Shown in pieces: positions 19,767-39,881 of a stretch of 64,000 bases of DNA. The notes below the pieces were generated by a model that was given only the letters and a program-made list of their open reading frames with translations, did no database searches and was not told the origin of the DNA. The stretch lies in contig NZ_CP032550.1 of assembly GCF_009735645.1 (NCBI RefSeq), positions 2,418,001 through 2,482,000 of the forward strand, written 5' to 3'. The translations under genes were made by a program, and so were the position numbers. The number at the start of each line of letters is the position of its first letter. Position 1 is the stretch's first letter. This stretch comes from Microbacterium oryzae (GTDB taxonomy: Bacteria; Actinomycetota; Actinomycetes; Actinomycetales; Microbacteriaceae).

Positions 19767-21464
19767 GTGACTACGAAGATGAGGAAGGGCGCGCTCGCGC
19801 TGGGCGTGATCGGCGCTCTGCTTCTCACCGGCTGCGCCGGTGGCGGCGGTGGCGAAGAGCCGGCCGCCAACCAGGAGACGACGGGGCCCCAGTCCGGCGG
19901 CACCGTGCACATGCTGCAGAACGCGGACTTCTCGTACCTCGACCCCGCGCGGGGCTGGGACGGCGGCGTCAACGCGTTCTACCGCCTGCTCTACCGCGGG
20001 CTCACGATGCAGACCTCGGGTGACGCCGAAGACCCGAACGCGATCGTCCCCGACATGGCGACGGGGCTGGGCGAGGCGTCCGATGACGGCCTGACCTGGA
20101 CCTACACGCTGAAGGACGGACTCAAGTTCGACAACGGCGACCCGATCACCTCGGCCGAGGTGAAGTTCGGCATCTCGCGTGCCTGGGACCCCGACATCGG
20201 CATCGGCTCGCCGTACCTGAAGATGGTCATCGACGCTCCGGAGGACTACCAGGGCCCGTACGTCTCCGGTGACCTCCCGACGATCGAGACGCCGGACGAG
20301 AAGACCATCGTCTTCCACCTGAAGGCGCCGTTCCCCGAGTTCGACAACGTGCTCTCGCAGGCCAACGCCGTGCCGTTCCCGGAGGGCACCGGCGCGGGCG
20401 ACGAGTTCATCAGCGACGTGATCGCCTCGGGCCCGTACACGCTCGACAGCTACACGCCGGGCAGCTCGATCCGCCTCGTGCGCAACGAGAACTGGGACCC
20501 CGAGACCGACGAGGTGCGCAAGGCGTACCCCGACGCGTGGGAGTTCGAGATCGGCATCGACCCCGCCACGATCGACGAGCGGATGATCGCCGGCCAGGGC
20601 AGCGACGCCAGCGCGATCGCCTCCAAGATCAGCGGCTCGTCGCTCCCGCGTCTGCAGACGCCGGAGCTGCAGGAGCGCACCATCTCGGCGGACGCGTACT
20701 GCACGACCTACATGTCGATGAACACGTCGAAGGCGCCGTTCGACGACGTGAAGGTCCGCCAGGCCGTGAACTGGGCGATCGACCGGGCCACCGTGCAGAA
20801 CGCCTCGGGCGGTAACCAGCTGGCGGATGTCGCGACCGCGATCATCCCGCCGGCCGTCACCGGCCACAAGGAGTTCGACCTCTACCCGAGCGAAGGCCAC
20901 GCGGGCGACCCCGAGAAGGCCAAGGAGCTGCTCGCCGAGGCCGGCATGCCGGATGGGTTCGAGTTCACCCTCGACATCCGCTCGCAGCCGACCGCGCAGG
21001 CGCAGGCCGAGGCCATCCAGCAGTCGCTCGAGAAGATCGGCGTGACGGCGAACCTCAACGTCATCGACACCTCGATCTACTACGAGACGATCGCGACGCC
21101 GGCGAAGCAGAACGACGCCGCCATCACCGGCTGGTGCCCGGACTGGGCGTCCAGCGCGAGCACGTTCATCCCGCCGCTCTTCGACGGTCGCAACATCGTC
21201 GACCGCGGCAACCAGAACCTCGCTCAGCTGAACGACCCCGAGATCAACCAGCGCATCGACGAGATCCGCGCCATGGAGGACCCGCAGGAGGCTGCGACCG
21301 CCTGGGGCGAGCTCGACGAGCAGATCATGGAGCTCTCGCCGATCGCACCGCTCGTGCTCGAGAAGGGCATCTTCCTCCCGGGCGAGAACATCACGAACTA
21401 CTACCCCAGCACGAACATGACCGATCTCACGATCGTCGGGCTCAAGGACCCCGCGAAGAGCTGA
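19767..21464 (+). CDS. Peptide ABC transporter substrate-binding lipoprotein (SBP family 5)
   Basis: A 565-residue lipoprotein. It has a basic start, a hydrophobic signal (GALALGVIGALLL) and lipobox LLLTGCAG (lipidated Cys23), then a Gly/Glu-rich tether. The mature part is DppA/OppA-like: VHMLQNADFSYLDPARGWDG, TYTLKDGLKFDNGDPITS and KVRQAVNWAIDR. The start is GTG 19767 behind AAGGTAGGA at 19748-19756. It is the first gene of the 20-kb unit, so it should capture the (glyco)peptide outside the membrane for the permease pair that follows. Family 5 also includes sugar and nickel binders; the peptide assignment rests on downstream peptidases. Confidence 0.85.
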   Translation: MTTKMRKGALALGVIGALLLTGCAGGGGGEEPAANQETTGPQSGGTVHMLQNADFSYLDPARGWDGGVNAFYRLLYRGLTMQTSGDAEDPNAIVPDMATGLGEASDDGLTWTYTLKDGLKFDNGDPITSAEVKFGISRAWDPDIGIGSPYLKMVIDAPEDYQGPYVSGDLPTIETPDEKTIVFHLKAPFPEFDNVLSQANAVPFPEGTGAGDEFISDVIASGPYTLDSYTPGSSIRLVRNENWDPETDEVRKAYPDAWEFEIGIDPATIDERMIAGQGSDASAIASKISGSSLPRLQTPELQERTISADAYCTTYMSMNTSKAPFDDVKVRQAVNWAIDRATVQNASGGNQLADVATAIIPPAVTGHKEFDLYPSEGHAGDPEKAKELLAEAGMPDGFEFTLDIRSQPTAQAQAEAIQQSLEKIGVTANLNVIDTSIYYETIATPAKQNDAAITGWCPDWASSASTFIPPLFDGRNIVDRGNQNLAQLNDPEINQRIDEIRAMEDPQEAATAWGELDEQIMELSPIAPLVLEKGIFLPGENITNYYPSTNMTDLTIVGLKDPAKS

Positions 21465-21465
21465 G

Positions 21466-22437
21466 ATGACCGTCACCTCGACTGGAATCGAGGCTGAGAC
21501 CCCGGCCGTCGGCGACCCCGCGCACATGCGCACGGAGTCGCCGACGGCCCCGGGCCGTCGCCTGCTCCGCGCCTTCGCCACCGATGTGCCCGCCGTGCTC
21601 TCCACGGGCTACATCGTCGTCATGGTCCTCGCGGCCATCTTCGCTCCGCTCATCGTCGCCGTCAGCGGCTGGGGACCGTACGAGTTCGACCAGACCGCCA
21701 TCGACCCGAACCTCGGCGCCATCCCGGTCGGCCCGCTCGGCGGCATCAGCGCACAGCACTGGTTCGGGGTGGAGCCCGGCAGCGGACGCGACATCTTCGC
21801 GCGCATCGTCTACGGCGCGCGCGTCTCCCTCACCGTCGCACTCAGCGCGACGGTCCTCACGACCATCCTCGGCGTGGTCTTCGGACTGCTCGCCGGCTAC
21901 CTCGGCGGCTTCGTCGACACCGTCATCTCACGCGTCATGGAGTTCCTCATGGCGTTCCCCGCGCTGATCTTCATGATCGCCATCCTCTCCGCGCTCCCCG
22001 CGGACAACCGCGTGCTGCTGCTGGTGCTCGTCATCTCGCTGTTCGGATGGCCGTACCTCGCGCGCATCGTGCGCTCGCAGACGCTCTCCCTCAAGGAGCG
22101 CGAGTTCGTCGAGTCCGCCAAGGCCTCCGGAGCGACGCACGTGCAGATCATCTTCCGGGAGATCCTCCCGAACCTGCAGTCGACCATCATCGTCATGGCG
22201 ACCCTGGCCGTGCCCGGCTACGTCGGAACGGAGGCGGGCCTGTCGTTCCTCGGCGTCGGCGTCGTGCCGCCCACCCCGAGCTGGGGCCAGATGATCGCGT
22301 CGGCCGCCCCCTGGTACGCGGTCGACCCGATGTACTTCGTCATCCCCGGCGCCTTCCTGTTCCTGCTCGTGATGTCGTTCACGACGCTCGGAGACCGGGT
22401 GCGCGTCATCGTCGGCAGCGGAGAGGTGCGCGCGTGA
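21466..22437 (+). CDS. Peptide ABC transporter permease (DppC type)
   Basis: A 323-residue inner-membrane permease. It begins 1 nt after the binding-protein stop. It has a cytoplasmic N-tail, a first span near residue 45, then FGVEPGSGRDIFARIVYGARVSL and the EAA loop FVESAKASGATHVQIIFREILPN, which docks on the ATPases. About six spans are visible, ending FLLVMSFTTLGDRVRVI. In most dpp operons the B-type permease comes first; here the C-type precedes it. Confidence 0.87.
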   Translation: MTVTSTGIEAETPAVGDPAHMRTESPTAPGRRLLRAFATDVPAVLSTGYIVVMVLAAIFAPLIVAVSGWGPYEFDQTAIDPNLGAIPVGPLGGISAQHWFGVEPGSGRDIFARIVYGARVSLTVALSATVLTTILGVVFGLLAGYLGGFVDTVISRVMEFLMAFPALIFMIAILSALPADNRVLLLVLVISLFGWPYLARIVRSQTLSLKEREFVESAKASGATHVQIIFREILPNLQSTIIVMATLAVPGYVGTEAGLSFLGVGVVPPTPSWGQMIASAAPWYAVDPMYFVIPGAFLFLLVMSFTTLGDRVRVIVGSGEVRA

Positions 22438-23432
22438 CCCGTCTGATCATCTCGCGTCTGCTCGGGATGGCCCTGGTGCTGTTCCTGGTGACGCTGTTCA
22501 CCTACGTCATCTTCTTCGTGCTGTCGCCGGACCCGGCCGTGCAGATCTGCGGCAAGAACTGCACACCCGACCGCATCGACCAGATCCGGACGAGCCTCGG
22601 ACTCGACGAGCCGTTCTGGACGCAGTTCTTCACGTACGTCGGCGGGCTCTTCGCGGGCCGCACGTTCGTCGTCGCCGGCGCGGACGTCGCCTGCTCCGCG
22701 CCGTGCCTCGGCTACTCGTTCCAGACCAGTCAGCTCGTCGGCGACATGATCGTGCAGCGCCTCCCGATCTCCGCGACGATCGCCATCGGCGCCGCGGTGC
22801 TGTGGGTGCTCGGCGGCGTGACCTCGGGCGTGCTGAGCGCCGTGAAGGAGGGGCGCTTCCTCGACCGCTTCTTCGCCGGCCTCACCCTCGGCTCGATGTC
22901 CATCCCGAACTACGTCCTCGCGCTCGCGCTGCAGTTCGTCCTCGTCGTCGCGCTGGGATGGCTGCCGTTTCCGCAGGCCGTGCGCTTCGGCGACGACCCG
23001 GGGCGCTGGTTCTTGAACTTCATCATGCCGTGGATCGTGCTCGCGATCGGATACGCCGCGGTCTACACGCGGCTCACCCGCGCCAACGTCATCGAGACGA
23101 TGCAGGAGAACTTCGTGCGCACCGCGCGGGCGAAGGGCCTGGCGCCGAGCCTCGTCTGGCGGCGCCACGCGCTGCGCCCCGCCCTCACCCCGATCGTCAC
23201 GATCTTCGGCATGGACATCGCAGGCCTCCTCGGCGGTGCGGTCATCACCGAGACCGTGTTCGGCCTCAACGGCGTGGGCAAGCTCACCGCCGACTCGATC
23301 TCGAGCAACGACCAGCCCGTCATCATGGCGGTCACGCTGCTGTCGGCCTTCTTCGTGATCGTCGGCAACCTCGTCGTCGATCTGCTCTACTCCGCGATCG
23401 ACCCGCGCGTCCGGACAGGAGCGAAGGCATGA
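22434..23432 (+). CDS. Peptide ABC transporter permease (DppB type)
   Basis: A 332-residue permease with a GTG start at 22434 overlapping the previous stop by 4 nt. The N-terminus LIISRLLGMALVLFLVTLFTYVIFF is the typical first span of DppB. The segment RIDQIRTSLGLDEPFWTQFFTYV is also characteristic. The EAA loop is FVRTARAKGLAPSLVWRRHALRPALTP. The periplasmic loop carries four cysteines (QICGKNCTPD and ADVACSAPCLGY), more than usual, perhaps forming disulfides. Confidence 0.87.
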   Translation: MTRLIISRLLGMALVLFLVTLFTYVIFFVLSPDPAVQICGKNCTPDRIDQIRTSLGLDEPFWTQFFTYVGGLFAGRTFVVAGADVACSAPCLGYSFQTSQLVGDMIVQRLPISATIAIGAAVLWVLGGVTSGVLSAVKEGRFLDRFFAGLTLGSMSIPNYVLALALQFVLVVALGWLPFPQAVRFGDDPGRWFLNFIMPWIVLAIGYAAVYTRLTRANVIETMQENFVRTARAKGLAPSLVWRRHALRPALTPIVTIFGMDIAGLLGGAVITETVFGLNGVGKLTADSISSNDQPVIMAVTLLSAFFVIVGNLVVDLLYSAIDPRVRTGAKA

Positions 23433-24295
23433 ACGCCGCGACCACGAACCAGGGCCCACTCCTCACGGTCGACGACCTCACCGTCTCGTTCACCACGGCC
23501 AAGGGGCGCGCCGACGTCGTGAAGAACCTGAGCTTCTCGGTGCCCCGCGGTGGCGCCCTCGGCATCGTGGGGGAGTCGGGGTCGGGCAAGTCGATGACGA
23601 GCCTCGCGGTGATGGGCCTGCTGCCGAAGGGCGGCAGCGCCACCGGCCGCATCTCCTTCGACGGCCGTGAGCTGACCTCGCTCCCCGAGCGCGAGATGCG
23701 CGGCGTGCGCGGCGACCGGATCGCGATGATCTTCCAGGACCCGCTGTCGTCGCTCAACCCGTACTACAAGGTCGGCACGCAGATCGTCGAGGCGTACCTC
23801 TCCCACCGCAGCGGGGTGTCCCGGCGGGAGGCGCGGCGCGTGGCGATCGAGGCGCTCGAGCGCGTGCACATCCGCGACGCCGCCCAGCGCATCGACCACT
23901 ACCCGCACCAGTTCTCCGGCGGCATGCGCCAGCGCATCATGATCGCCATGGCGCTGAGCATGGAGCCCGACCTCATCATCGCCGACGAGCCCACGACCGC
24001 ACTCGACGTCACGGTGCAGGCGCAGATCCTCGACCTCCTGTCGGAGATCCGGAAGGACACCGGCGCGAGCCTCATCCTCATCACCCACGACCTCGCGGTC
24101 GTGAGCGAGGTCACCGACGACATCGTCGTCATGCGCGAGGGCGCGGTGGTCGAGCAGGGGACGACCGAGCAGGTGTTCAGCGATCCGCAGGCCGACTACA
24201 CCCGCCGGCTGCTCGATGCCGTGCCGCGCATCGACGACGAGATCGGGACGCTGCGGACCACGGCCATCCCGACCGTGACAGGAGGAACCCGATGA
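23429..24295 (+). CDS. Peptide ABC transporter ATPase (DppD/OppD type)
   Basis: A 288-residue ATPase with an ATGA overlap to the permease gene. Motifs are Walker [10 protein letters not shown]-loop [12 protein letters not shown], signature FSGGMRQR, Walker [13 protein letters not shown] and the switch His in ITHDLAVV. The C-terminal [11 protein letters not shown] is typical of the Opp/Dpp subfamily. The usual iron-sulfur cysteines after this motif in some DppD proteins are absent. It pairs with the next gene as a heterodimer. Confidence 0.88.
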
Positions 24296-25191
24296 GCGCC
24301 GCTCCGCTGTCGACCGAGACCCCGCTGTGCCGCGCCACGGGGCTCGTGAAGGACTTCGCCACCGGCCGGGCAACCGTGCTCGGCACGAAGAAGTCGTTCC
24401 GCGCCGTCGATGACGTGTCGCTGGAGATCCGCCGCGGCGAGACGATGGCGCTCGTGGGGGAGTCCGGGTCGGGCAAGTCGACGACGGCCCGCCTGGTCGC
24501 GCGCCTCATGGAGGTCGACGGCGGCACGATCGAGTTCGAGGGGCAGGATGTGACGGCGCTCCGCGGACGCGAGCTGCACGACTTCCGCGGGAAGGTGCAG
24601 GTCATCTTCCAGGACCCGTTCTCGTCGCTGAACCCGCGGCACTCGGTCGAGCGCCTCGTGACCGCGCCCCTTGTCTACCAGGGGCGGAAGATCCCCGGCG
24701 GCGCGCGGGCGTTCACGCGCTCGCTCATGGAGCGCGTGGGGCTCAACCCCGACTTCTCCGACCGCCTCCCCTCGCAGTTCTCCGGCGGTCAGGCGCAGCG
24801 CATCGGCATCGCCCGCGCGCTGGCCGTCGGCCCGAAGCTCGTCATCTGCGATGAGGCCGTCTCCGCGCTCGACGTGTCGGTGCAGGCGCAGGTCATCAAC
24901 CTGCTGCGCGATCTGCAGGCCGACGAGGGCTTCGGCTACCTCTTCATCGCGCATGACCTCGCCGTCGTCCGGCAGATCGCCACGCGCGTCGCCGTGATGA
25001 GCCAGGGCCGGATCGTCGAGACCGGCGAGCGCGACGCGATCTTCGAGTCGCCGCAGCACGAGTACACGCGCACGCTGCTGAGCGCTGTGCCGCGGATCAA
25101 CCCCGAGTGGGACCGCCGACGCCGCGAGGCGGAGCGGCGGCGCGAGGAGAGCGCGGCGCACGGCGTGCCCGCGGCGGAGGGAGCCCGATGA
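24292..25191 (+). CDS. Peptide ABC transporter ATPase (DppF/OppF type)
   Basis: A 299-residue second ATPase with an ATGA overlap to the previous gene. Motifs are Walker [10 protein letters not shown]-loop VIFQDPFSSLNPRHSV, signature FSGGQAQRIG, Walker B LVICDEAVSALD and IAHDLAVV. The last 25 residues are unusually Arg/Glu-rich. With the binding protein, two permeases and the first ATPase it completes a five-part importer. The order (A-C-B-D-F) and overlaps show a single operon. Confidence 0.88.
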   Translation: MSAAPLSTETPLCRATGLVKDFATGRATVLGTKKSFRAVDDVSLEIRRGETMALVGESGSGKSTTARLVARLMEVDGGTIEFEGQDVTALRGRELHDFRGKVQVIFQDPFSSLNPRHSVERLVTAPLVYQGRKIPGGARAFTRSLMERVGLNPDFSDRLPSQFSGGQAQRIGIARALAVGPKLVICDEAVSALDVSVQAQVINLLRDLQADEGFGYLFIAHDLAVVRQIATRVAVMSQGRIVETGERDAIFESPQHEYTRTLLSAVPRINPEWDRRRREAERRREESAAHGVPAAEGAR

Positions 25192-26474
25192 CCACCTCTT
25201 ACCTGCTGCGCGGGATGCGCGCGCGCGAGCAGCGTGTGACGGTGCCCCTCGACTGGACCCAGCCCGACGGCGAGAGCATCGAGCTGCTCGTCCGCGAGCT
25301 CGTCGACCCCGAGCGCGACCATCCCGAGACGCCGTTGCTCACCTACCTGCAGGGCGGCCCGGGCGGCGCGAACCCGCGCCCGCTCGCGCGCGACGGCTGG
25401 ATCGCCGAGGCGCTCGACACCTACCGCGTCGTGCTCGTCGACCAGCGGGGCACCGGCGGATCCACTCCGCTCGACGCCCGCGTCGTGGCCGAGCGGGGGG
25501 ATGGCCGCGCCGGCGCGGACTTCCTCGCCCACTTCCGCGCGGACTCCATCGTGCGGGACCTCGAGCACGTGCGGCAGGAGCTGTACGAGGGCCGGCGCTG
25601 GGCGACGCTCGCGCAGAGCTACGGCGGCTGGATCACGCTGACGTACCTGTCGTTCGCTCCGGAGGGCCTGGCCGCGAGCTACATCTGCGGGGGCGTCCCC
25701 GGCACGCCGCCGCGGGCGAGCGAGGTCTACCGGCGCACGTTCGACCGCGTCGCGACGAAGACGGCGGAGCTCTACCGGCGCTACCCCGACGACGTCGGGC
25801 GGGTGGCGGAGATCGCCGACGCGCTCGCCGCGGGCGACGTGCTGCTGCCCGACGGCGACGTCCTCACCGTCCGCCGCTTCCAGGCGCTCGGCATCGACAT
25901 GGGGATGAAGCCCGGTCACGAGCGTCTGCACTGGCTCATCGAGAAGGCGTTCGTGCGCCCTGGCCGGTTCTCCGACGCGTTCCTGCAGGATGTCATGGCG
26001 CTCAGCTCGACCGCGGGCAACCCGCTGTTCTGGACGCTGCAGGAGACGCTCTACGGCGATCCCTCGAGCGGTGCCACCGGCTGGGCCGCTCAGGCCGAGC
26101 GCGACCGCCGCCCCGCCTTCGACGAGGATCGGCGGCCGCTGCTGTTCACGGGCGAGATGGCCTTCCCGTGGATGTTCGACGAGATCCGCGTGCTGCGCGG
26201 CTTCGCACCGGCCGTGCACGAGCTCGCCGCGCGCACGGACTGGGGTCCTCTGTACGACCTCGACCGGCTCGCGGCCAACGAGGTGCCGGTCGCCGCCGCC
26301 GTGTACTTCGACGACATGTACGTCGATGCGGGGCTGCAGCTCGACACCCTCGGCCGGCTCGGCAACGCCGGCTGGTGGGTCACCAACGAATACGAACACG
26401 ACGGCATCGGCTCGGGGCGCACCTTCACGCACCTCCGGGAGATCGTCCGCGACCGCGGAGGAGAGACAGCATGA
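25188..26474 (+). CDS. Alpha/beta hydrolase, proline iminopeptidase-like (S33)
   Basis: A 428-residue cytosolic enzyme from ATG 25188 (4-nt overlap). S33 features are the oxyanion loop LQGGPGGANPRPL (56-60), VLVDQRGTGGS (84-92) and the nucleophile in AQSYGGW (Ser144). Family members remove N-terminal proline (and often hydroxyproline) from peptides. The catalytic His is probably in NEYEHDGIG near the C-terminus. Immediately after a peptide importer and before an Xaa-Pro peptidase, it is expected to free Pro or Hyp from imported peptides. No signal peptide is present. Confidence 0.82.
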   Translation: MTTSYLLRGMRAREQRVTVPLDWTQPDGESIELLVRELVDPERDHPETPLLTYLQGGPGGANPRPLARDGWIAEALDTYRVVLVDQRGTGGSTPLDARVVAERGDGRAGADFLAHFRADSIVRDLEHVRQELYEGRRWATLAQSYGGWITLTYLSFAPEGLAASYICGGVPGTPPRASEVYRRTFDRVATKTAELYRRYPDDVGRVAEIADALAAGDVLLPDGDVLTVRRFQALGIDMGMKPGHERLHWLIEKAFVRPGRFSDAFLQDVMALSSTAGNPLFWTLQETLYGDPSSGATGWAAQAERDRRPAFDEDRRPLLFTGEMAFPWMFDEIRVLRGFAPAVHELAARTDWGPLYDLDRLAANEVPVAAAVYFDDMYVDAGLQLDTLGRLGNAGWWVTNEYEHDGIGSGRTFTHLREIVRDRGGETA

Positions 26475-27901
26475 CCGAGACGACCTCGCGCCCGCCCTAT
26501 GCGGGCACGCGCTACCCGCGCCTGGCCGACATCCCCGCCTTCACCGAGTGGATCGGCGGCGGATGGGCCGACGTCCAGACCCGTCCCGACCTGCCCGTCG
26601 GCGCGGCCGCCGCGAGCGCCGCTCACCGCGACCGGCTGAGCGCCGCGCTGCCGGGGCAGACGCTCGTCGTCGCCGCGGGAACCGCGCCCATCCGCAACGA
26701 CGACGCGGCATACGGCTTCCGCGCCGACAGCAGCTTCGTGTGGCTCACCTCCTGTCAGGTCGAGGACGCCGTGCTCGTGATGTGGGCTCGCGACGGCGGA
26801 CACGACGCGGTCCTCTACATGCCACCGCCCTTCCGGCCGGGCGACGCCGGGTTCTTCTCGAACGCCCTGCACGGCGAGCTCTGGGTCGGCCCGTCGGCCG
26901 GACTCCCGGAATGGGCGGACGCCCTCGGCGTCGAGGTGCGCCCGCTCGCCGACCTCGGCACCGCGACCGCGCGCCTGGGAGGCGCTCTCACCGCGCGGTC
27001 GGCCGTCGCCGTCGTCCCCGGTGCAGAGGCGTCGACCGAGCTCGAGCGCACGCTGTCGAACCTGCGGATGGTCAAGGACGCCTGGGAGATCGGGCAGCTC
27101 CGCGAGGCCATCGACGCCACCGTCAGCGGCTTCGGGGCCACCGTCGCCGAGATCCCCCGCGCGATCGCCGAGGGCCTCGGCGAGCGCTGGCTGCAGGGCA
27201 CGTTCGACCGTCATGCCCGCACCCTCGGCAACGGACCCGGCTACTCCACGATCGTCGGGTCCGGTGCGCACGCGCCGATCCTCCACTGGGTGCGCTGCGA
27301 CGGGCCGGTGCACGACGACGCGCTCCTCCTGCTCGACATGGGCGTCGAGGCGCGCTCGCTCTACACGGCGGACGTCACCCGCACCTTCCCCGCGAGCGGC
27401 TCCTTCGACGCCACGCAGCGCGAGGTGCACGATCTCGTCGAGAAGGCCCACCGCGCGGGGCTCGCCCAGATCCGCCCCGGCACGCCCTACCTCGACTTCC
27501 ATTTCGCGGCGATGGAGGTCATCGCGACGGGGCTGCACGACTGGGGTCTGCTGCCGGTCTCCGTCGACGAGGCGCTGTCCCCGCAGGGTCAGCAGCACCG
27601 CCGGTACCTCGCGTGCGGCATCGGGCACCACCTTGGTCTCGACGTGCACGACTGCAGCCAGGCGCACTACGAGGACTACATGGGCGCGGATCTCGTTCCC
27701 GGCGTCGTCATGACGGTGGAGCCCGGCCTCTACTTCCACGCGCACGACCTCACCCTGCCGCCCGAGCTGCGCGGCATCGGCGTGCGCCTGGAGGACGACA
27801 TCCTCGTCACCGAGACGGGGTCGGAGGTCCTCTCCGACGCCCTCCCCATCGACGCCGCGGGCATCGAGCTCTGGGTCGGCGAGCGGATGGCCGGACGGTG
27901 A
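26471..27901 (+). CDS. M24 metallopeptidase, Xaa-Pro aminopeptidase (PepP type)
   Basis: A 476-residue enzyme from ATG 26471. The N-terminal half is the AMP_N-type creatinase domain (IRNDDAAYGFRADSSFVWLT). The C-terminal pita-bread fold shows all five metal ligands: Asp pair in LLLLDMGVEARSLYTADVTR, His in CGIGHHLGLDVHD, Glu in MTVEPGLYF and Glu in VRLEDDILVT. It removes the residue before a proline. Paired with the S33 enzyme it could dismantle Pro/Hyp-rich peptides inside the cell. Confidence 0.87.
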   Translation: MTETTSRPPYAGTRYPRLADIPAFTEWIGGGWADVQTRPDLPVGAAAASAAHRDRLSAALPGQTLVVAAGTAPIRNDDAAYGFRADSSFVWLTSCQVEDAVLVMWARDGGHDAVLYMPPPFRPGDAGFFSNALHGELWVGPSAGLPEWADALGVEVRPLADLGTATARLGGALTARSAVAVVPGAEASTELERTLSNLRMVKDAWEIGQLREAIDATVSGFGATVAEIPRAIAEGLGERWLQGTFDRHARTLGNGPGYSTIVGSGAHAPILHWVRCDGPVHDDALLLLDMGVEARSLYTADVTRTFPASGSFDATQREVHDLVEKAHRAGLAQIRPGTPYLDFHFAAMEVIATGLHDWGLLPVSVDEALSPQGQQHRRYLACGIGHHLGLDVHDCSQAHYEDYMGADLVPGVVMTVEPGLYFHAHDLTLPPELRGIGVRLEDDILVTETGSEVLSDALPIDAAGIELWVGERMAGR

Positions 27902-30654: not shown

Positions 30655-30690
30655 TCTCGCCATAGACACGGACGTATCCCGCCGACTAGC

Positions 30691-30703
30691 ATTGCAATTG
30701 TAC
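30691..30703 (+). promoter_or_regulatory. Predicted second operator upstream of the hydroxyproline genes
   Basis: ATTGCAATTGTAC contains the same words, ATTGCA and TTGTAC, as the palindrome at 19682-19702. It lies in the only real gap (91 bp) within the locus, 43 bp before the DapA-family gene. It may mark an internal promoter controlled by the same GntR regulator. A TAGCAT just before it (30687-30692) could be a -10 box. Confidence 0.42.
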
Positions 30704-30745
30704 TCATCCGATGACGCGCGTTGAGCGTCCGCCAGAAAGACGACT

Positions 30746-31654: not shown

Positions 31655-31680
31655 TCCGCTGACCGGAGAGGGGGAAGACC

Positions 31681-32682: not shown

Positions 32683-33662
32683 GCGTTCCGGTCATCGACG
32701 CCGCGGCGATCGCGTCCGCCCTCACCCGGGCGGACGCGGTGGCCGCGATCGAGGAGGCGCTGCGCGCGGGGCAGGACGTCGAGGCCGACACCCCGCGCCT
32801 GTTCCGCCAGCTGGAGGCGGGGGAGTTCCTCCTCATGCCCGCCGAGTCGCCCGCGCACGCCGGCGTGAAGGTGGCCACCGTCGCGCCCGGCAATCCCGCG
32901 CGCGGGCTGCCGAAGATCCATGCCTGGTACCTCCTCTTCGACGCGCAGACGCTGCAGCCGGCCGCGCTCCTGGAGGGGACGTTCCTCACCATCCTCCGCA
33001 CCCCCGCGGTGACCGCCGCCGCCATCCGCGCTCTGCTGCGCGCGCACCCCTCGAGCGCGCGCGAGCGCATCGACCGTCTGCTCGTGATGGGGACCGGGCC
33101 GCAGGCCGAGGCGCACGTGCGTACGCTCGCCGACATCCTCCCCGTCGGCCGCGTCGACGTGGTCGGGCGGAACGCCGAGCGCGCGGCGGCGCTGGCCGAC
33201 CGGCTCGCGGCCGACGGCATCGCGGCCCGCCCGAGTTCGCGTGAGGCCACGCGGGAAGCGGACGTCGTCGTGACGGCGACGTCGTCCTCCGAGCCGGTCC
33301 TCGACCTCGCCGACGTGTCGCCGGACGCCGTCGTCGCCGCGATCGGCGCCCATGGCCCCGGCCACCGTGAGCTGGGGGCCGACCTCGTGCGTGCCGCCGA
33401 TCTCGTCGTGGAGGCCCGCTCATCGGCCTTCCGTGAGAGCGGCAACCTCCTGCAGGCGCGCTCGGTCGACGGCTGGAAGGCGGGACTGCAGCCGGTGGCG
33501 AACCTGCGCGAGCTCGTCGGCGCGGGCATCGAGCGCCGAGCGGGACGCCCCGCCGTGTACGCGGGGGTGGGCATGTCCTGGGAGGATCTCGCCATCGCCG
33601 AGAAGATCATGAGGAGGCTCGCACCGCACCGGTCGGGCCACTCGGAGGAGGGGGCATCGTGA
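32679..33662 (+). CDS. Ornithine cyclodeaminase/mu-crystallin family protein
   Basis: A 327-residue NAD(P)-dependent enzyme with a GTG start at 32679 overlapping the epimerase stop. Family marks are FLLMPAESPAHAGVKVATVAPGN (shorter than the classic GGK-containing motif), the Rossmann loop LLVMGTGPQAEAHVR, and VVAAIGAHGPGHRELG. In hydroxyproline clusters such proteins are often 1-pyrroline-2-carboxylate reductases, which would salvage the product of D-proline oxidation. Ornithine cyclodeaminase itself has little sense here. Confidence 0.75.
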   Translation: MSVPVIDAAAIASALTRADAVAAIEEALRAGQDVEADTPRLFRQLEAGEFLLMPAESPAHAGVKVATVAPGNPARGLPKIHAWYLLFDAQTLQPAALLEGTFLTILRTPAVTAAAIRALLRAHPSSARERIDRLLVMGTGPQAEAHVRTLADILPVGRVDVVGRNAERAAALADRLAADGIAARPSSREATREADVVVTATSSSEPVLDLADVSPDAVVAAIGAHGPGHRELGADLVRAADLVVEARSSAFRESGNLLQARSVDGWKAGLQPVANLRELVGAGIERRAGRPAVYAGVGMSWEDLAIAEKIMRRLAPHRSGHSEEGAS

Positions 33663-34366
33663 CCACACCCGCGACGCGCAATGTCGTCCGGCTGCAGAAG
33701 CAGCCGAGCATTCGGGAGACGGTGAAGAAGGCGCTCCGCTCCGCCATCATCAGCGGCGAGATGCAGCCGGGGCAGGTGTACTCGGGCCCGAGCCTCGCCG
33801 AGCAGTTCGGCGTCTCGGCGACGCCCATCCGCGAGGCCATGCTCGACCTCGTGCGGGAGGGTCTCGTGGTGGCGATGCCCAACCGCGGCTTCCAGGTGAC
33901 GGAGGTCGCGGAGAAGGACCTCGTCGAGGTCACGCAGATCCGCCTGCTTCTGGAGCCCCCCGCGGTCGAGATCGCCACGCCGCTCGTCCCTGCGGACGCG
34001 CTCCCCGGATTGCGCGCGCAGTGCGACCTCATCGTCCGGCATGCCGAGGAGGGCGACCTCGTCAGCTACCTCTCCGCCGACAGCGACTTCCATCTGGCGC
34101 TGCTGCAGCATGCGGGCAACGACCGGCTGACCGAGCTCGTGGCATCGCTGCGCTCGCAGACGCGCCTGTTCGGCCTCGCCGCCCTCTTCCGGCAGGGGCG
34201 CCTCGCGGCGTCCGCACGGGAGCATCACGCCATGGTGGATGCGATCGAGCAGGGCGACGCGGCCCTCGCGCGCGAGCTCGTGCACGCGCACATCGAGCAC
34301 GTGCTCACGGATTGGTCCGACCCCGCCGCGGGCGAAGCCGCCGGCGAGGCCGTGGGCGCTTCGTGA
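33659..34366 (+). CDS. GntR-family regulator (FCD/FadR type) of the hydroxyproline locus
   Basis: A 235-residue regulator with a GTG start overlapping the previous gene by 4 nt. The winged helix is at about 15-80 (VKKALRSAIISGEMQPGQ, SLAEQFGVSATPIREAMLDLV). The FCD effector domain follows with DFHLALLQHAGN and the metal-type His in AREHHAMVDAIEQGDAALA. Being inside the operon, it is probably autoregulated. Likely sites are the TTGTAC/ATTGCA elements at 19682 and 30691, and the likely inducer is hydroxyproline or an intermediate. Activator or repressor mode cannot be read. Confidence 0.83.
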   Translation: MTTPATRNVVRLQKQPSIRETVKKALRSAIISGEMQPGQVYSGPSLAEQFGVSATPIREAMLDLVREGLVVAMPNRGFQVTEVAEKDLVEVTQIRLLLEPPAVEIATPLVPADALPGLRAQCDLIVRHAEEGDLVSYLSADSDFHLALLQHAGNDRLTELVASLRSQTRLFGLAALFRQGRLAASAREHHAMVDAIEQGDAALARELVHAHIEHVLTDWSDPAAGEAAGEAVGAS

Positions 34367-35529
34367 TCCGCGCCGCCGAGCCCGCGGATCTCGTCATCAT
34401 CGGCGCGGGCATCATGGGCGCGGCCACCGCTTGCTTCGCGGCGGCAGCAGGACTCAGCGTCGTCGTCGTGGAGCGCGGATCCATCGCGTCGGGAACCAGC
34501 AGCCGCTGCGAGGGCAATCTCCTCGTCTCCGACAAGGAGCTCGGCCCCGAGCTCGAGCTCGCCCGCTACGCGCAGAACGTCTGGCGGCAGGACCTCGCCG
34601 AGCACGCGGGGGTGTGGGAGTTCGAGTCCAAGGGCGGCATCATCGTCGCGGAGAACGAGGCCAGCGCCACCGCCCTCACCGCGCTCGCGGAGCACCAGCG
34701 CGGCCTCGGCATCGAGGTCGAGCTGCTGCCGGACATCGCCGACGTGCGGCGGCTCGAGCCGTACATCAACCCCGCGCTCGCGGGCGGCGCGTTCTACCCC
34801 GAGGACGCCCAGGTGCAGCCGGTGCTCGCCACCCATCACCTCCTGAAGCTCGCACGCGAGAACGGCGCGCGAGTGCTCACCCGCACCCCCGTGCTCGCGA
34901 TCGAGACCGCCGGCGGTCGTGTCTCCGGGGTGCGGACGCCCGACGGCGTCATCGGTGCGGGCGCCGTGATCAACTGCGCGGGCGCCTGGGCGAGCGACGT
35001 CGCCGCACTGGCGGACCTCGATCTCCCCGTGCTCCCGCGCCGGGGCTTCGTGCTCGTCACCGAGCCCGTGCCCGTGACGATCCACCACAAGGTGTACTCC
35101 GCCGGTTACGTCGGCGACGTGGCGAGCTCGGATGCCGGCCTGCAGGTCTCGCCGGTCGTCGAGGGCACCCCGAGCGGGACCATCCTGCTCGGCGCGAGCC
35201 GCGAGCGGGTCGGCTTCGACGAGCGGTTCTCGATGGAGGCCGTCTCGCGCATCGCGCGGGCGGGGATCGGCCTCTTCCCCGCGCTCGCCGACCTCCGCCT
35301 GCTGCGCACCTACTCGGGCTTCCGCCCCTACTGCCCCGACCACCTGCCCGTCATCGGCCCCGACGCACGCCTCCCCGGTCTGTGGCATTCGGCCGGCCAG
35401 GAGGGCGCCGGGATCGGGCTGTCCGTCGGGATCGCGAAGCTCCTCACGCAGGCGCTCCAGGGTGAGGAGACCGACCTCGATCTCGCGCCGTTCCGACCCG
35501 AACGATTCGAAGGGAAGCTCGCCGCATGA
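34363..35529 (+). CDS. D-hydroxyproline dehydrogenase, FAD subunit (DAO/HcnC-like beta)
   Basis: A 388-residue DAO-family flavoprotein with a GTG start overlapping the GntR stop. The N-terminal FAD fingerprint is LVIIGAGIMGAATACFAAAAG with VVVVERG. The C-terminal RTYSGFRPYCPDHLPVIGP and HSAGQEGAGIGLS are typical of glycine/D-amino-acid oxidases. It oxidises cis-4-hydroxy-D-proline to 1-pyrroline-4-hydroxy-2-carboxylate. Electrons should pass to the two next subunits. The three-gene order (beta, small Fe-S, alpha) matches the heteromeric D-Hyp dehydrogenase of other bacteria. Confidence 0.83.
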   Translation: MIRAAEPADLVIIGAGIMGAATACFAAAAGLSVVVVERGSIASGTSSRCEGNLLVSDKELGPELELARYAQNVWRQDLAEHAGVWEFESKGGIIVAENEASATALTALAEHQRGLGIEVELLPDIADVRRLEPYINPALAGGAFYPEDAQVQPVLATHHLLKLARENGARVLTRTPVLAIETAGGRVSGVRTPDGVIGAGAVINCAGAWASDVAALADLDLPVLPRRGFVLVTEPVPVTIHHKVYSAGYVGDVASSDAGLQVSPVVEGTPSGTILLGASRERVGFDERFSMEAVSRIARAGIGLFPALADLRLLRTYSGFRPYCPDHLPVIGPDARLPGLWHSAGQEGAGIGLSVGIAKLLTQALQGEETDLDLAPFRPERFEGKLAA

Positions 35530-35825
35530 CCGAAGACGCGCCTGCCGGAGCGACCCTGACGTTCGACGGCCGCCCCATCCCGTTCCGCCCCGGACAGACC
35601 GTCGGCGCCGCCCTCACGGCGCAGGGCATCGTGTCGTGGCGGACGACCCGTCGCGAGCACACCGAGCGCGGGCTGTTCTGCGGCATCGGCGTGTGCTTCG
35701 ACTGCCTCGTCACCGTCGACGGCCAGCGTGTGCAGCGAGCGTGCATCACTCCCGCCTGCGACGGGCAGGATGTGCGCAGCGAGCACCCGGACACCGCACT
35801 GCCGATCCCGGGGGAGCAGGCATGA
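35526..35825 (+). CDS. Dehydrogenase small [2Fe-2S] subunit (gamma)
   Basis: A 99-residue plant-type ferredoxin domain. The four cluster ligands are Cys52, Cys57 and Cys60 in FCGIGVCFDC and Cys73 in RACITPAC. The N-terminal part (TLTFDGRPIPFRPGQTVGAAL) is the beta-grasp strand pair. ATG 35526 overlaps the previous stop. It carries electrons between the two flavin subunits of the D-hydroxyproline dehydrogenase and has no independent role in known systems. Confidence 0.85.
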   Translation: MTEDAPAGATLTFDGRPIPFRPGQTVGAALTAQGIVSWRTTRREHTERGLFCGIGVCFDCLVTVDGQRVQRACITPACDGQDVRSEHPDTALPIPGEQA

Positions 35826-37303
35826 CCGCCACGACGACCGCCGACCTCGTCGTCGTCGGCGCCGGGCCCGCCGGACTGTCGGCGGCTGTGGCGGCCGCCG
35901 ACCTCGGCCTGCAGGTCACGCTCGTCGACGCGGGAGCGCAGACCGGCGGCCAGTACTGGCGCCATCCCGACGAGCGGCACCGCGACGGCTTCGACCGGCC
36001 GGAATCCACGGGACACCACCACTGGGACCGCTTCACCGACCTGCGCGCGCGGCTCGCCGCCGCGGTCCGGGATGGCCGCATCCGGCACGTCGCGGAGCGT
36101 CAGGTGTGGCGCGTGGACGCGTCGCCGGACGAGGATCTCGTGCTGCACACCACGGCCGCGGTCGGCGCAGACGCGTGGCGCCCCGCGGAGCGGTCGGTGC
36201 GCGGTCGCCGGCTGCTCATCGCCACCGGCGCCTACGACCGGCAGCTCCCCGTTCCGGGATGGACGCTGCCCGGCGTGATGGCGGCCGGCGGCGTGCAGGC
36301 CCTCCTCAAGGCGCATCAGGTCACCGCCGGACGCCGCGCGGTCGTCGCCGGCACCGGGCCGTTCCTGCTCTCCGTGGCCGCCGGCCTCGCCGAAGCCGGT
36401 GTGGAGGTGGTCGCCGTGTGCGATGCGAACGCCCTCTCCCGGTGGGCCGCGACGCCGCTGCGCGCGGTGCAGGAGCCCGGGAAGCTGCTCGAGGGCGTCG
36501 GCTACGCCGCCACCTTCCTGCGCCACCGCATCCCGCTCCGCACGCGGACGGTCGTGAGCGAGGTGCGCGGTGCATCGCGCGTCTCGGAGGTCGTGCTGCA
36601 GCGCGTGGACGCCCGGGGCCGAGCGATCGCGGGCAGCGAGCGCTCTGTCGACGTGGACCTCGTCGCCTTCGGCTGGGGCTTCACGCCGCAGCTCGAGCTC
36701 GCCGTCGGGCTGGGGCTCCGCACGCGCGTCGACGTGGACGAATCGCTGATCGTCGACGTGGACGACGACCTGCGCACCTCCGACCCCCGCGTCTTCGCCG
36801 CCGGCGAGGCCACCGGCATCGGCGGGGCCATCCAGTCGTGTGCCGAGGGAGAGCTCGCCGCGCGGGCGATCGCCGCGGACCTGGGCCGTCCCGCCTCCCC
36901 GCGGGAGATGACGCGCCTGCGACGCCGGATCGGCCGTGGGCGCCGGTTCGCGGTCGGGATGCATCGCGCGAGCCCGGTGCCGGCGGAGTGGTCCGGATGG
37001 CTGCGGCCGGAGACCCTGGTCTGCCGCTGCGAGGAGGTGACGGCCGCCGAGGTGGGCGACACCGTCTCGTGCCTCGGCGCCGACGACTCCCGGGACGTGC
37101 GCGTGACCGCGCGGCCCGGCATGGGCTGGTGCCAGGGACGCGTGTGCGGCTTCGCGGTGTCGAAGCTCGTGAGCGAGCGCACCGGCATCCCCTCGACCGA
37201 ACGCGACCTGGAGCCCCTGGCCAAGCGCCCGGTGGGCGTGCCGATCCGCCTCGGCGAGATCGCCGATCTGATGAACACCCCGCACAAGGAGGACGCCCGA
37301 TGA
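35822..37303 (+). CDS. D-hydroxyproline dehydrogenase, FAD/NAD-type alpha subunit with BFD-like Fe-S domain
   Basis: A 493-residue protein. It has an FAD-binding start LVVVGAGPAGLSAAVAAADLG, QTGGQYWR, a second nucleotide site VVAGTGPFLLSVAAGLAEAG, and FAAGEATGIGGA near residue 325. The last 100 residues hold the BFD-like cluster motif LVCRCEEV...MGWCQGRVCG, as in the HcnA/OoxA family. ATG 35822 overlaps the ferredoxin stop. It completes the three-subunit dehydrogenase and is probably the exit for electrons. Confidence 0.82.
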   Translation: MTATTTADLVVVGAGPAGLSAAVAAADLGLQVTLVDAGAQTGGQYWRHPDERHRDGFDRPESTGHHHWDRFTDLRARLAAAVRDGRIRHVAERQVWRVDASPDEDLVLHTTAAVGADAWRPAERSVRGRRLLIATGAYDRQLPVPGWTLPGVMAAGGVQALLKAHQVTAGRRAVVAGTGPFLLSVAAGLAEAGVEVVAVCDANALSRWAATPLRAVQEPGKLLEGVGYAATFLRHRIPLRTRTVVSEVRGASRVSEVVLQRVDARGRAIAGSERSVDVDLVAFGWGFTPQLELAVGLGLRTRVDVDESLIVDVDDDLRTSDPRVFAAGEATGIGGAIQSCAEGELAARAIAADLGRPASPREMTRLRRRIGRGRRFAVGMHRASPVPAEWSGWLRPETLVCRCEEVTAAEVGDTVSCLGADDSRDVRVTARPGMGWCQGRVCGFAVSKLVSERTGIPSTERDLEPLAKRPVGVPIRLGEIADLMNTPHKEDAR

Positions 37304-38751
37304 GCACCGACAGCACCCCGGCCGAGGAGGTCGATGCGATCGTCGCACGGGCGGCCGAGGCTTCCGCGACGTGGAAGCACGCGTCGATCGCGGACCGCGT
37401 CCGGGCCCTGGCCGCGGCCGCCGACGCCCTGGACGCGCACGCGGATGAGCTGGTGGCACTCGCGCAGCGGGAGACCCACCTGGCCGAGGGGCGCCTCCGC
37501 GGCGAGCTCGCGCGCACGACGTTCCAGCTGCGGCTGTTCGGCGAGGTGCTGGAGGAGGGCAGCTGGGTCGATGCCCGCATCGACCACGCCGACCCGGAGT
37601 GGCCGATGGGCGCACCGCGCCCCGACCTGCGCCGCCAGCTCGAGCCGATCGGCCCCGTGCTGGTCTTCGCCGCGAGCAACTTCCCGTTCGCGTTCTCGGT
37701 CGCCGGGGGCGACACCGCGAGTGCGCTCGCCGCGGGATGCGCGGTCGTGCTCAAGGCCCACCCCGGCCATCCCGAGCTCTCCGCCGCCACCACGCGGGTG
37801 CTGGTCGACGCTCTCAGCGCGGCAGGCGCTCCCGAGGGCCTCTTCCAGACGATCTACGGATCGGATGCGGGCGTGCGCGCGCTGCGTGCGCCCGCCATCA
37901 AGGCCGCGTCCTTCACGGGATCGATCGCCGGTGGCCGGGCGCTGTTCGACATCGCCAACCAGCGCGACGAGCCCATCCCGTTCTACGGCGAGCTCGGCAG
38001 CGTGAATCCCGCCTTCGTCACTCGCCATGCGGCCGACGCCGACGCGGAGTCGATCGCCGACGGCTTCCTCGCCTCGGTCATGGGCAGCGCCGGCCAGCTC
38101 TGCACGAAGCCCGGAGTCCTGCTGGCGCCCCGGGGCTCGGCCGTGGTGGAGCGTCTCACGCAGGTCTCGGTGCCCGACGGCTCGCCGCTGCTCAACGACG
38201 CCATCGCCTCCGGCTTCGCGTCGTCGTTCGCCGACATCAGCGGGCGCGACGGCGTGACGCCCCTCGTGTCCGGTGCCGGCGACCCGGCGCCGACGCTGCT
38301 GCAGACCACCGCGGCCACCGTCCTCGCCGATGCCGACGGGCTGGTGTCGGAGATGTTCGGGCCGGCCGCGCTCGTGGTGACCTACGAGGACGAGAGCGAG
38401 ATGCTGGAGATCGCCCGATGCCTCGACGGCCAGCTGACCGCGACGATCGTCGCCCAGGAGGACGACGAGACGGCGCGGGAGCTGATTCCGCTCCTCGCGG
38501 AGAAGGCCGGGCGCGTGCTGTGGAACCAGTGGCCCACCGGTGTCTCGGTGACCTGGGCCCAGCAGCACGGCGGTCCGTATCCTGCCACGACGGCGGTCGG
38601 CACGACCTCGGTCGGCACGGCGGCGATGAGCCGGTTCCTGCGACCGGTCGCGTACCAGAACGTGCCCGACGCGCTGCTCCCCCCGGCGCTGCAGGAGGCG
38701 AACCCGCTCGGTCTGCCACGCCGCGTCGACGGGGTCGCGCAGCTCCGATGA
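37300..38751 (+). CDS. 2-oxoglutarate semialdehyde dehydrogenase (NADP-type ALDH)
   Basis: A 483-residue aldehyde dehydrogenase of the KGSADH type. The catalytic Cys268 is in SAGQLCTKPG and the general base Glu231 in YGELGSVNP. The substrate-side segment FAASNFPFAFSVAGGD is characteristic of the fatty-aldehyde/KGSA branch, and the cofactor Lys is in VLKAHPGHP. The product 2-oxoglutarate enters the TCA cycle, so this is the last pathway step. ATG 37300 overlaps the previous stop and follows AAGGAGG. Confidence 0.87.
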   Translation: MSTDSTPAEEVDAIVARAAEASATWKHASIADRVRALAAAADALDAHADELVALAQRETHLAEGRLRGELARTTFQLRLFGEVLEEGSWVDARIDHADPEWPMGAPRPDLRRQLEPIGPVLVFAASNFPFAFSVAGGDTASALAAGCAVVLKAHPGHPELSAATTRVLVDALSAAGAPEGLFQTIYGSDAGVRALRAPAIKAASFTGSIAGGRALFDIANQRDEPIPFYGELGSVNPAFVTRHAADADAESIADGFLASVMGSAGQLCTKPGVLLAPRGSAVVERLTQVSVPDGSPLLNDAIASGFASSFADISGRDGVTPLVSGAGDPAPTLLQTTAATVLADADGLVSEMFGPAALVVTYEDESEMLEIARCLDGQLTATIVAQEDDETARELIPLLAEKAGRVLWNQWPTGVSVTWAQQHGGPYPATTAVGTTSVGTAAMSRFLRPVAYQNVPDALLPPALQEANPLGLPRRVDGVAQLR

Positions 38752-39806
38752 CGGAGCGGTACCTCAACTTCGCGAGCTTCGGTCCGCCGACACGAGCGGT
38801 GCTCGACGCCGCGCATCGGGTCGACGAGCGCGCGGCGGCGGGCGTGCCGGCGGCCGAGCTGCACCGGGAGGACGAGCGGGCGATCGCCGCCGTCTCGCGC
38901 GTCACCGGCTTCGCAGCCGAGGGCATCGCGCTGATGCCGAACACCTCCACCGGGCTGCTGCACGCCGCCTTCGCCGTGCCGTCGGGACGCGTCCTCGTCT
39001 CGCGGGCGGAGTTCCCGGCGAACCTCTACCCCTGGTGGCGCGCGGCCGAGGCGGGCCGGCTCGAGGTGGAGGTGGTGGAACCGGCGCTGCCCGAGCGGCC
39101 CATGTCGCCGGACGACGTCGCCGCCGCCCTCACCGCCGACACCGTCGCGGTGGCGGTGAGCGCGGTGAGCTTCCGGACGGGATACCGGGTGGATCTCGAT
39201 GCGGTGAGGGACGTCATCGGCGATCGCCTGCTCGTCGTGGACGCCATCCAGGCGATGGGCGTCGTGCAGCAGGACTGGCGCGTCGCCGACGTCGTCGCCG
39301 TCGGCGGCCAGAAGTGGCTGCGCGCGGGGTGGGGGACGGGCTTCCTCGCGCTCTCGCCGCGCGCGCTCGACCGGCTCCGGCCGCTCCTCACCGGATGGGC
39401 CGGGGTGGAGGATGCGGGGATCTACTCCGGCGACGAGCACCCTCGCCGCGCTGACGCCCGGCGGTTCACGGTGACCAACGGCGCACCCTCCGCGGCCGCG
39501 GCGCTGACCGCCGCGCTCGAGGGGATCGAGAGCGCGGGCGCGGTGGCCGAGCAGGTGTCCGACCGCGCGAGCCACCTTACGGAGGGACTCGCGGAACAGG
39601 GGGTCTCGGTCGTCTCGCCCACCTCGGCCGCCGACCGCGCGGGGATCGTGGTCGCACGGTTCTCGGATGCGCCGCGCCGGCACGCGGAGCTCGCCCGCGC
39701 CGGCGTGCAGACCACGCTCATCGGGGATGACCTCATCCGGTTCTCCCCGCACACGACGACCCCGTTCGAGGTCCTCGACGAGGTCATGGCGCTGCTCGCG
39801 GCCTGA
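38748..39806 (+). CDS. Class V aminotransferase-fold PLP enzyme, unknown substrate
   Basis: A 352-residue PLP enzyme of the isopenicillin-N-epimerase/cysteine-desulfurase fold. Phosphate loop MPNTSTGLLHAAF, cofactor Asp165 in VVDAIQAMG and Schiff-base Lys189 in GGQKWLRAGWG are present. The desulfurase active-site Cys loop is absent, so sulfur transfer is unlikely. It is the last gene of the locus, overlapping the dehydrogenase by 4 nt. No known hydroxyproline route needs it; it may be an alternative epimerase or a lyase for another residue of the imported peptide. Confidence 0.7.
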   Translation: MTERYLNFASFGPPTRAVLDAAHRVDERAAAGVPAAELHREDERAIAAVSRVTGFAAEGIALMPNTSTGLLHAAFAVPSGRVLVSRAEFPANLYPWWRAAEAGRLEVEVVEPALPERPMSPDDVAAALTADTVAVAVSAVSFRTGYRVDLDAVRDVIGDRLLVVDAIQAMGVVQQDWRVADVVAVGGQKWLRAGWGTGFLALSPRALDRLRPLLTGWAGVEDAGIYSGDEHPRRADARRFTVTNGAPSAAAALTAALEGIESAGAVAEQVSDRASHLTEGLAEQGVSVVSPTSAADRAGIVVARFSDAPRRHAELARAGVQTTLIGDDLIRFSPHTTTPFEVLDEVMALLAA

Positions 39807-39827
39807 GAGCGCGCGCATTCGGGATGG

Positions 39828-39881
39828 GAAGTGCGCAGTGGAGGAGGAACTGCGCGGAATTCATCCTCCCGAGCGCACTTC
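39828..39881 (+). repeat. Intergenic palindromic repeat, copy B
   Basis: The 36-nt block 39843-39878 is identical to 19501-19536 in the same orientation. Outer arms GAAGTGCGC (39828-39836) and GCGCACTTC (39873-39881) are perfectly inverted. It starts 21 bp after the last gene of the hydroxyproline locus, so the two copies bracket that locus. It may also act as a bidirectional transcription stop. Confidence 0.87.

Follow-up and report, generated by a model that had tools for sequence, protein, structure and literature searches.

Within a 64,000-nt window of the Microbacterium oryzae genome (positions 2418001-2482000 of the 3.04 Mb single contig, NZ_CP032550.1; all coordinates below are those of the window unless stated otherwise), 17 plus-strand genes form an almost gapless run of open reading frames at 19767..39806. 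Our analysis suggests that this operon is likely to be one regulon for consuming O-arabinosylated, hydroxyproline-rich plant peptides, from extensin or from other hydroxyproline-rich glycoproteins (HRGPs). Its first half encodes a peptide-type importer, two proline-type peptidases and a glycosidase, and its second half a hydroxyproline (Hyp) gene set. An original prediction, made from the letters of the DNA alone, had claimed that these genes function together. That claim is supported by the clustering of these genes, in other orders, in distant genera and by replacement of the glycosidase with a member of another family, and likewise by a sister group of glycosidases that lacks the partner genes and carries signal-like N-termini and by related sites before both halves.

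The one-strand layout with mostly 4-nt overlaps that had been described was borne out by the open reading frames: 13 of the 16 gene junctions are 4-nt overlaps, and the remaining three are gaps of 1 nt (solute-binding protein/permease), 91 nt (glycosidase/DHDPS-family gene) and 26 nt (DHDPS-family/proline-racemase-family gene). The complete peptide-type importer of the original prediction was likewise confirmed by Pfam and NCBIfam domains. The Opp/Dpp set consists of a family-5 solute-binding lipoprotein (SBP; 19767..21464; SBP_bac_5, with a lipobox recognised by eye), two permeases with BPD_transp_1 domains (OppC/DppC-like, 21466..22437; OppB/DppB-like, 22434..23432) and two ATPases with ABC_tran and oligo_HPY domains (OppD/DppD-like, 23429..24295; OppF/DppF-like, 24292..25191). 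The nearest solved structure to the SBP is the oligopeptide-binding protein OppA2 (2wok), and the importer is predicted to carry peptides or glycopeptides. Family membership also upheld the two proline-directed peptidases, an alpha/beta hydrolase resembling proline iminopeptidase (PIP; 25188..26474; Abhydrolase_1) and an M24 peptidase nearest to aminopeptidase P (26471..27901; AMP_N and Peptidase_M24). For the PIP-like hydrolase, the Arabidopsis protein 8jgn (with 8jgm) ranks closest, and the match to proline iminopeptidase 5yhp is weak; its likely triad, S144, D376 and H404, is present in 48/48 sequences. In the M24 enzyme, D289, D301, H386/H387, E417 and E441, which from knowledge of the family we take to be the metal-ligand positions, are invariant in 52/52 sequences. 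Once the sugar is gone, these two enzymes could in principle dismantle a peptide such as Ser-Hyp-Hyp-Hyp-Hyp.

The next gene (27898..30654) encodes a 918-aa, probably cytosolic enzyme of the beta-L-arabinofuranosidase families, which had been described as DUF1680/GH127-type with zinc cysteines. The zinc site held, whereas the assignment to GH127 and HypBA1 did not: the enzyme belongs to the GH146 type of glycoside hydrolases. A profile built from three orthologs gave GH146 BT0349 (5opj) as its top match, with 255 bits (1.1e-74), and scored 176 bits against GH146 Bll3HypBA1 (8k7y) versus 58 bits against GH127 4qjy. With an AlphaFold model (mean predicted local distance difference test score 86.9, from a 40-row alignment of cassette-type sequences), the first six Foldseek matches were all BT0349 or Bll3HypBA1 entries, and GH127 came next. 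Pfam gave PF07944 and PF20736 only in the operon enzyme and did not find PF20737, the GH127 C-terminal domain, which is present in the HypBA1-type relative of L063, one of the related loci described below; that relative matches 4qjy (488 bits) and 3wkw (353 bits). On the profile and Foldseek results, HypBA1-type GH127 was rejected as the reference for the operon enzyme. The Cys3-Glu zinc ligands E340, C342, C410 and C411 and the acid/base E322 are identical in 80/80 aligned sequences, namely the window enzyme and those of 79 of 80 related loci (L094 was too short to be included). The original prediction had also held that the glycosidase lacks a signal, and by eye none is visible: the gene starts with a GTG that overlaps the stop codon of M24, and only 21 residues precede the family domain. 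NCBIfam places an OmpL47-type domain at its C-terminus.

The GH146 assignment still fits a role on Hyp, since XeHypBA1 and Bll4HypBA1, both published members of GH146, release arabinofuranose (Araf) from Araf-beta1-Hyp (PMC10850190). Their specificities differ from that of Bll3HypBA1, and GH146 membership therefore allows, and does not prove, Hyp-linked activity; hydrolysis of Araf-beta1-Hyp is the predicted activity of the operon enzyme. XeHypBA1 and Bll4HypBA1 share its family, a likeness judged through other GH146 structures, whereas a peptide importer forms the genomic context here. The same genome has another locus, with two PF07944 genes, at genome positions 1626236-1636002 (L039, L040). 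One of the two is a paralogue of the operon enzyme with 48% identity and a Tat signal; it lies near a sugar-type ABC importer (signal and importer by eye), and the locus probably serves extracellular use of arabinan or oligosaccharides.

The second half of the operon begins with a DHDPS-family protein (30746..31654), a proline-racemase-family protein (31681..32682; Pro_racemase), an OCD/mu-crystallin family protein (32679..33662; OCD_Mu_crystall) that Pfam and NCBIfam family matches liken to the imine reductase LhpI, and a HypR-like GntR regulator with an FCD domain (33659..34366; Pfam). These are followed by the proposed FAD (DAO; 34363..35529), 2Fe-2S (Fer2_4; 35526..35825) and Pyr_redox_2 (35822..37303) subunits of a D-Hyp dehydrogenase, which correspond in domain to SCO6289, SCO6290 and SCO6291, respectively; the Pyr_redox_2 protein also has a BFD-like part, with a Fer2_BFD match slightly below the Pfam cut-off. 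The run closes with an aldehyde dehydrogenase (37300..38751; Aldedh) and a class V aminotransferase-family protein (38748..39806; Aminotran_5, a family match). By domain, a two-Cys epimerase, a three-subunit D-Hyp dehydrogenase, a DapA-type deaminase and a GntR-FCD regulator are all present, and we propose the corresponding epimerase, dehydrogenase and deaminase functions for these proteins. C91 and C254 of the proposed 4-hydroxyproline 2-epimerase occur in 26/26 sequences, and its score with the NCBIfam 4-Hyp epimerase model, 358.5 bits, falls just below the cut-off of 376. The aldehyde dehydrogenase is assigned to the Pfam Aldedh family only: among the 25 best NCBIfam models listed, not one reaches its cut-off, and the alpha-ketoglutaric semialdehyde dehydrogenase model NF042993 gives 78.4 bits with a cut-off of 770. 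Its proposed role as that dehydrogenase comes from context, as does that of the DHDPS-family protein as pyrroline-4-hydroxy-2-carboxylate deaminase, which also has an analogue in SCO6292 (PMC6608401). Genes of the families expected for all four claimed steps from L-Hyp to 2-oxoglutarate are present, with the deaminase and the last enzyme assigned by context.

To place the operon, we used the best 80 of 178 related loci from a collection with one genome per species, among which the closest named locus is that of M. oryzae ZSM5 (GH146 protein 89% identical). Genes of the cassette, defined as importer, PIP and M24 and scored as present above 50% identity, occur in 52/80 loci, and 28/80 have none; several loci are cut by contig ends. 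The 52 loci contain the SBP in 46 cases, each permease in 45, PIP in 47 and M24 in 51. In a FastTree tree of 80 glycosidase sequences, from the window and 79 of the loci (all but L094), the cassette and no-cassette sets split exactly, with support 1.0. Cassette carriers include Microbacterium, Glycomyces, Streptomyces, Kineosporia, Actinoplanes, Promicromonospora, Pseudoclavibacter, Brachybacterium, Kineococcus and Actinosynnema. In at least 41/52 cassette loci, a glycosidase start codon sits in a 4-nt overlap with the end of the M24 gene, which leaves no room for a signal. By contrast, 26/28 non-cassette glycosidases have a signal-like N-terminus (by eye; L128 is unclear and L130 is cut by a contig end). 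The signal-less form of the glycosidase therefore accompanies the peptide cassette.

The Hyp genes follow the same division. An epimerase ortholog lies in the flank of 25/52 cassette loci and 0/28 controls, and extension along the same contigs brought the count to 38/52: of 19 further stretches examined, 13 (L161-L173, on contigs of the same length as those of the loci) have the epimerase beside the cassette. We also queried the whole genomes of 27 cassette loci whose flanks contain no more than one Hyp gene, a set that includes L077, L078 and L083, already within the 25 flank-linked loci, and does not include L081, L094 and L096; an epimerase ortholog was present in 27/27, with a best match 69-77% identical. 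Cassette and Hyp genes are combined in about five arrangements. The Hyp genes are downstream in Microbacterium, downstream but reordered in Glycomyces, upstream on the same strand in Streptomyces, Kineosporia, Catenuloplanes, Actinosynnema and Kineococcus, and divergent in Promicromonospora; in Brachybacterium phenoliresistens they lie on the opposite strand, and the cassette is represented by M24 and GH146 only. In a single genome, adjacency of this kind is not striking, because the source genome has 9 SBP_bac_5 and 4 PF07944 loci in 3.04 Mb and about 0.24 pairs within 10 kb are expected by chance; we dropped it as evidence. The linkage of the genes is not chance, because it recurs across dozens of genomes.

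Two further contigs were not counted as linked because they show no overlap with the loci from the same genomes. On L175 (Kineosporia mesophila, the genome of L076), importer genes reach the contig end beside Hyp genes and could represent the part that L076 lacks, and on L176 (Promicromonospora kroppenstedtii, the genome of L119), permeases, ATPases and the end of a GH146 gene adjoin an epimerase. Draft assembly could have split these loci, or both could be additional copies. GH36 genes were found in 6/52 cassette flanks and 0/28 control flanks (Pfam-checked for L063, L066 and L070). In Pseudoclavibacter and Leucobacter they lie between M24 and GH146 (L063, 7673-9904; L070, 2719-5070, in locus coordinates). 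Serine residues of extensin bear alpha-galactose, and a GH36 enzyme beside GH146 could possibly remove it.

A sample of 299 Microbacteriaceae genomes gave a second view of the same association. At cut-offs of E <=1e-120 for the SBP and E <=1e-60 for the epimerase, the former was found in 26/299 and the latter in 68/299 genomes; the epimerase was present in 26/26 SBP genomes versus 42/273 others, and within 15 kb in 23/26. In 23/26 SBP genomes, a HypBA1-type GH127 gene with ETC and CC motifs (23/23) stands directly upstream of the SBP gene. These were identified by tblastn with the L063 enzyme, itself placed in GH127 by Pfam and PDB searches. In the 23 loci the importer is followed by PIP (22/23) and M24 (23/23), and Hyp genes are nearby in 21/23; the linkage of GH127 with proline racemase-family and Dpp genes, for which the original prediction had proposed a neighbourhood search, was found. 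The remaining three SBP genomes are the source genome, G021, whose operon lacks the OCD and aminotransferase genes, and G188, which has the cassette with GH36 and a second GH127 and Hyp genes on a different contig. A GH146- or GH127-type enzyme therefore occurs with the importer in 26/26 SBP genomes, the two families at different gene positions. We interpret GH127 in the place of GH146 as a non-orthologous replacement of the glycosidase, as judged by gene content and family. Since related genomes do not give independent counts, the variety of arrangements carries more weight than the numbers.

Two operator-like sites on the plus strand precede the two halves. Site 1, GTGCAGTTGTACATTGCAC (19683..19701), ends 65 nt before the importer gene and occurs once in the genome at <=3 mismatches. 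It recurs 59-67 nt upstream of the SBP start in 11/52 cassette loci, all from Microbacterium, and in 0/28 controls; outside these 11, L059 has a match 1.5 kb upstream, L072 has an opposite-strand match at 3 mismatches, and L065 has none. As a universal operator it was rejected, since it was not found in Glycomyces, Streptomyces and Promicromonospora cassettes or in GH127-type operons. Site 2, TTGCAATTGTAC (30692..30703), lies within the 91-nt gap before the Hyp genes and also occurs once in the genome. The pattern TGCARTTGYAC stands ahead of the DHDPS-family gene in 11/12 Microbacterium loci examined, and the twelfth (L059) is off by one base. Genome-wide, it has 3 occurrences, two of them at this locus, versus 9 for the reversed control pattern. 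Because the control is commoner, TGCARTTGYAC is notable for position and conservation and not for rarity, and it was dropped as evidence on its own. The reverse complement of site 1 contains TGCAATGT, which is common to the S. coelicolor HypR motif TGCAATGTCAC (PMC6608401). The GntR protein of the operon probably controls both halves by binding these two related sites.

Taken together, these data lead us to a model in which the lipoprotein and ABC importer would bring in short glycopeptides that still carry their arabinose. Once these are in the cytosol, the GH146-like enzyme, whose catalytic residues are present, would remove Araf from Hyp, aminopeptidase P would cut before Pro or Hyp (X-|-Pro/Hyp), and the iminopeptidase-like hydrolase would remove N-terminal Pro or Hyp, each as expected from its family. 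Free L-Hyp would then pass through the epimerase, the three-subunit D-Hyp dehydrogenase, the DapA-type deaminase and the aldehyde dehydrogenase to 2-oxoglutarate, a pathway known from other systems, and arabinose would join the usual pathway through araA, which is present in the source genome outside the operon. Both extensin as the substrate and import of the intact glycopeptide are what we infer from this gene content. In its broader form, we hold it somewhat probable that many actinobacterial genera import whole O-glycosylated peptides and carry out deglycosylation, exo-proteolysis and Hyp catabolism inside the cell under one regulator. With similarly guarded confidence, we suggest that GH146 or GH127 serve interchangeably in this role, sometimes joined by a GH36 alpha-galactosidase.

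Several observations weigh against this model. Family-5 binding proteins are not all peptide-specific, and OmpL47-type domains such as that of the glycosidase are commoner in surface proteins. Among published GH146 enzymes, Bll3HypBA1 is specific for Araf-beta1,3-Araf in arabinogalactan protein (AGP) and arabinan (PMC10850190). Epimerase linkage was not shown for 14/52 cassette loci, 11 of which (L063, L064, L065, L070, L072, L076, L089, L092, L097, L099 and L119) come from genomes that have an epimerase, and in the family genomes G003 and G079 the Hyp genes do not adjoin the importer (in G003, araA stands beside the cassette in their place); the two operon halves can therefore separate. Site 1 is missing from non-Microbacterium cassettes except for one weak opposite-strand match, and the importer is rare at phylum scale (2/396 genomes, including the source genome). 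Of the six GH36 genes, four are on the other strand, at the far flank edge. Adjacency of araA, seen for instance in Microbacterium arabinogalactanolyticum, where an FGGY kinase gene and araA are neighbours of the cassette, is not enriched (2/52 cassette versus 2/28 control flanks) and was dropped as specific evidence, and a second HypBA1-type GH127 nearby proved not to be cassette-specific either (8/52 versus 5/28 by tblastn, 10/52 versus 3/28 by clustering).

An importer of beta-arabino-oligosaccharides or Ara-Hyp monomers released outside the cell, accompanied by housekeeping peptidases and bringing in no peptide, appears improbable. Family-5 binding proteins do sometimes bind oligosaccharides. 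The HRGP system of Bifidobacterium longum, in which a disaccharide is imported and hydrolysed in the cytoplasm (PMC7263609; PMC5928203), offers a precedent; nevertheless, OppA2, the solved structure closest to the SBP, binds oligopeptides, the cassette regularly includes two proline-type peptidases (PIP in 47/52 and M24 in 51/52 loci), and the importer of the operon is Opp-type whereas the genome's other GH127/146 locus has a sugar-type importer (by eye).

We give little credence to a second alternative, in which the same machinery serves an arabinosylated source other than extensin, such as AGP peptides, CLE-type signalling peptides or solanaceous lectins. The presence of GH36 in 6/52 cassette flanks would fit the serine-linked alpha-galactose of extensin, and full catabolism to 2-oxoglutarate would suit an abundant polymer. 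In favour of such sources, signalling peptides such as CLAVATA3 are also arabinosylated (PMC5897480), and gene content does not tell the sources apart. That the operon serves unglycosylated Pro/Hyp peptides such as collagen fragments, with an incidental glycosidase, is equally hard to credit, as a GH146/GH127-type enzyme stands beside the importer in 26/26 family genomes and collagen, to our knowledge, carries no arabinose. This last alternative draws on the HypR regulons of Proteobacteria, which combine Pro peptidases, a Pro di/tripeptide permease and collagenases (PMC5343134), and on that of S. coelicolor, which contains a collagenase (PMC6608401).

Uptake and use of arabinosylated Hyp peptides would combine parts that are already known. 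The HypBA2/HypBA1/BauABC system of B. longum and its Xanthomonas counterpart also target beta-L-Araf on Hyp of HRGPs with an ABC importer and a cytoplasmic GH127 (PMC7263609; PMC5928203; PMC10850190). In B. longum, however, a surface GH121 frees the disaccharide beta-Ara2 for a sugar importer, and the described part includes no use of peptide or Hyp, whereas the operon has an Opp-type importer, two proline-type peptidases and the Hyp gene set. A Pfam search confined to the 17 operon genes found no GH121. The hypR/SCO6289-SCO6294 genes of Streptomyces coelicolor share DAO, Fer2_4, SoxA-like/BFD, DapA, Pro_racemase and an FCD-type GntR with the operon (PMC6608401). This Hyp set is induced by L-Hyp, and deletion of the epimerase gene abolishes growth on L-Hyp; the regulon table differs in listing a collagenase and no peptide importer, Pro peptidase or arabinofuranosidase (PMC6608401). 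Proteobacterial HypR regulons likewise group genes for Hyp breakdown with those for Pro peptidases and a peptide permease, in some cases with COG2423 (OCD), but have collagenases upstream and, in the sections consulted, no mention of a glycosidase (PMC5343134). HRGP degradation with GH127 and arabinose import has been proposed for Latescibacteria (PMC4454575). The original prediction knew of no system that couples all these functions; we likewise found no description in the open-licence literature, so far as its available parts cover the subject, and the coupling in one operon appears to be new.

The operon is flanked on both sides by copies, 87% identical, of a 75-nt palindromic repeat. The left copy (19473..19547) contains a 36-nt perfect core (19501-19536) that occurs exactly twice in the genome at <=3 mismatches, and the right copy (39815..39889) lies in a region with a strong hairpin fold (z -5.6 for 39800-39900). 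DNA similarity to the M. oryzae locus L055 starts at 19598, just inside the left copy. The repeat could have arisen by duplication of a terminator hairpin, or it could be a scar left where a gene block moved. Elsewhere in the window, two neighbouring minus-strand genes of 351 aa, each with an Mrr-type restriction endonuclease domain, lie at 3283-5398, an IS481-like transposase gene with an integrase core at 8969-9856, and adjacent minus-strand genes with caspase-like (Peptidase_C14) and CHAT domains, resembling a conflict- or defence-type pair, at 10456-14857. A 104-nt unit is repeated in three tandem copies with 73-nt spacing at 58341-58590. Rfam and tRNA scans gave no matches.

B. longum, as far as the cited accounts describe it, removes the sugar outside the cell and imports sugar only; the gene sets studied here suggest that the glycopeptide itself is taken up and that its arabinose and its Hyp are both used. 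If correct, this would explain how soil and plant actinobacteria can use extensin as a source of nitrogen and carbon, provide candidate enzymes for trimming Hyp-arabinosides, and assign a predicted function to dozens of importer-plus-DUF1680 loci. If whole glycopeptides are imported, carriers that live with plants could scavenge their arabinosylated signalling peptides as well.

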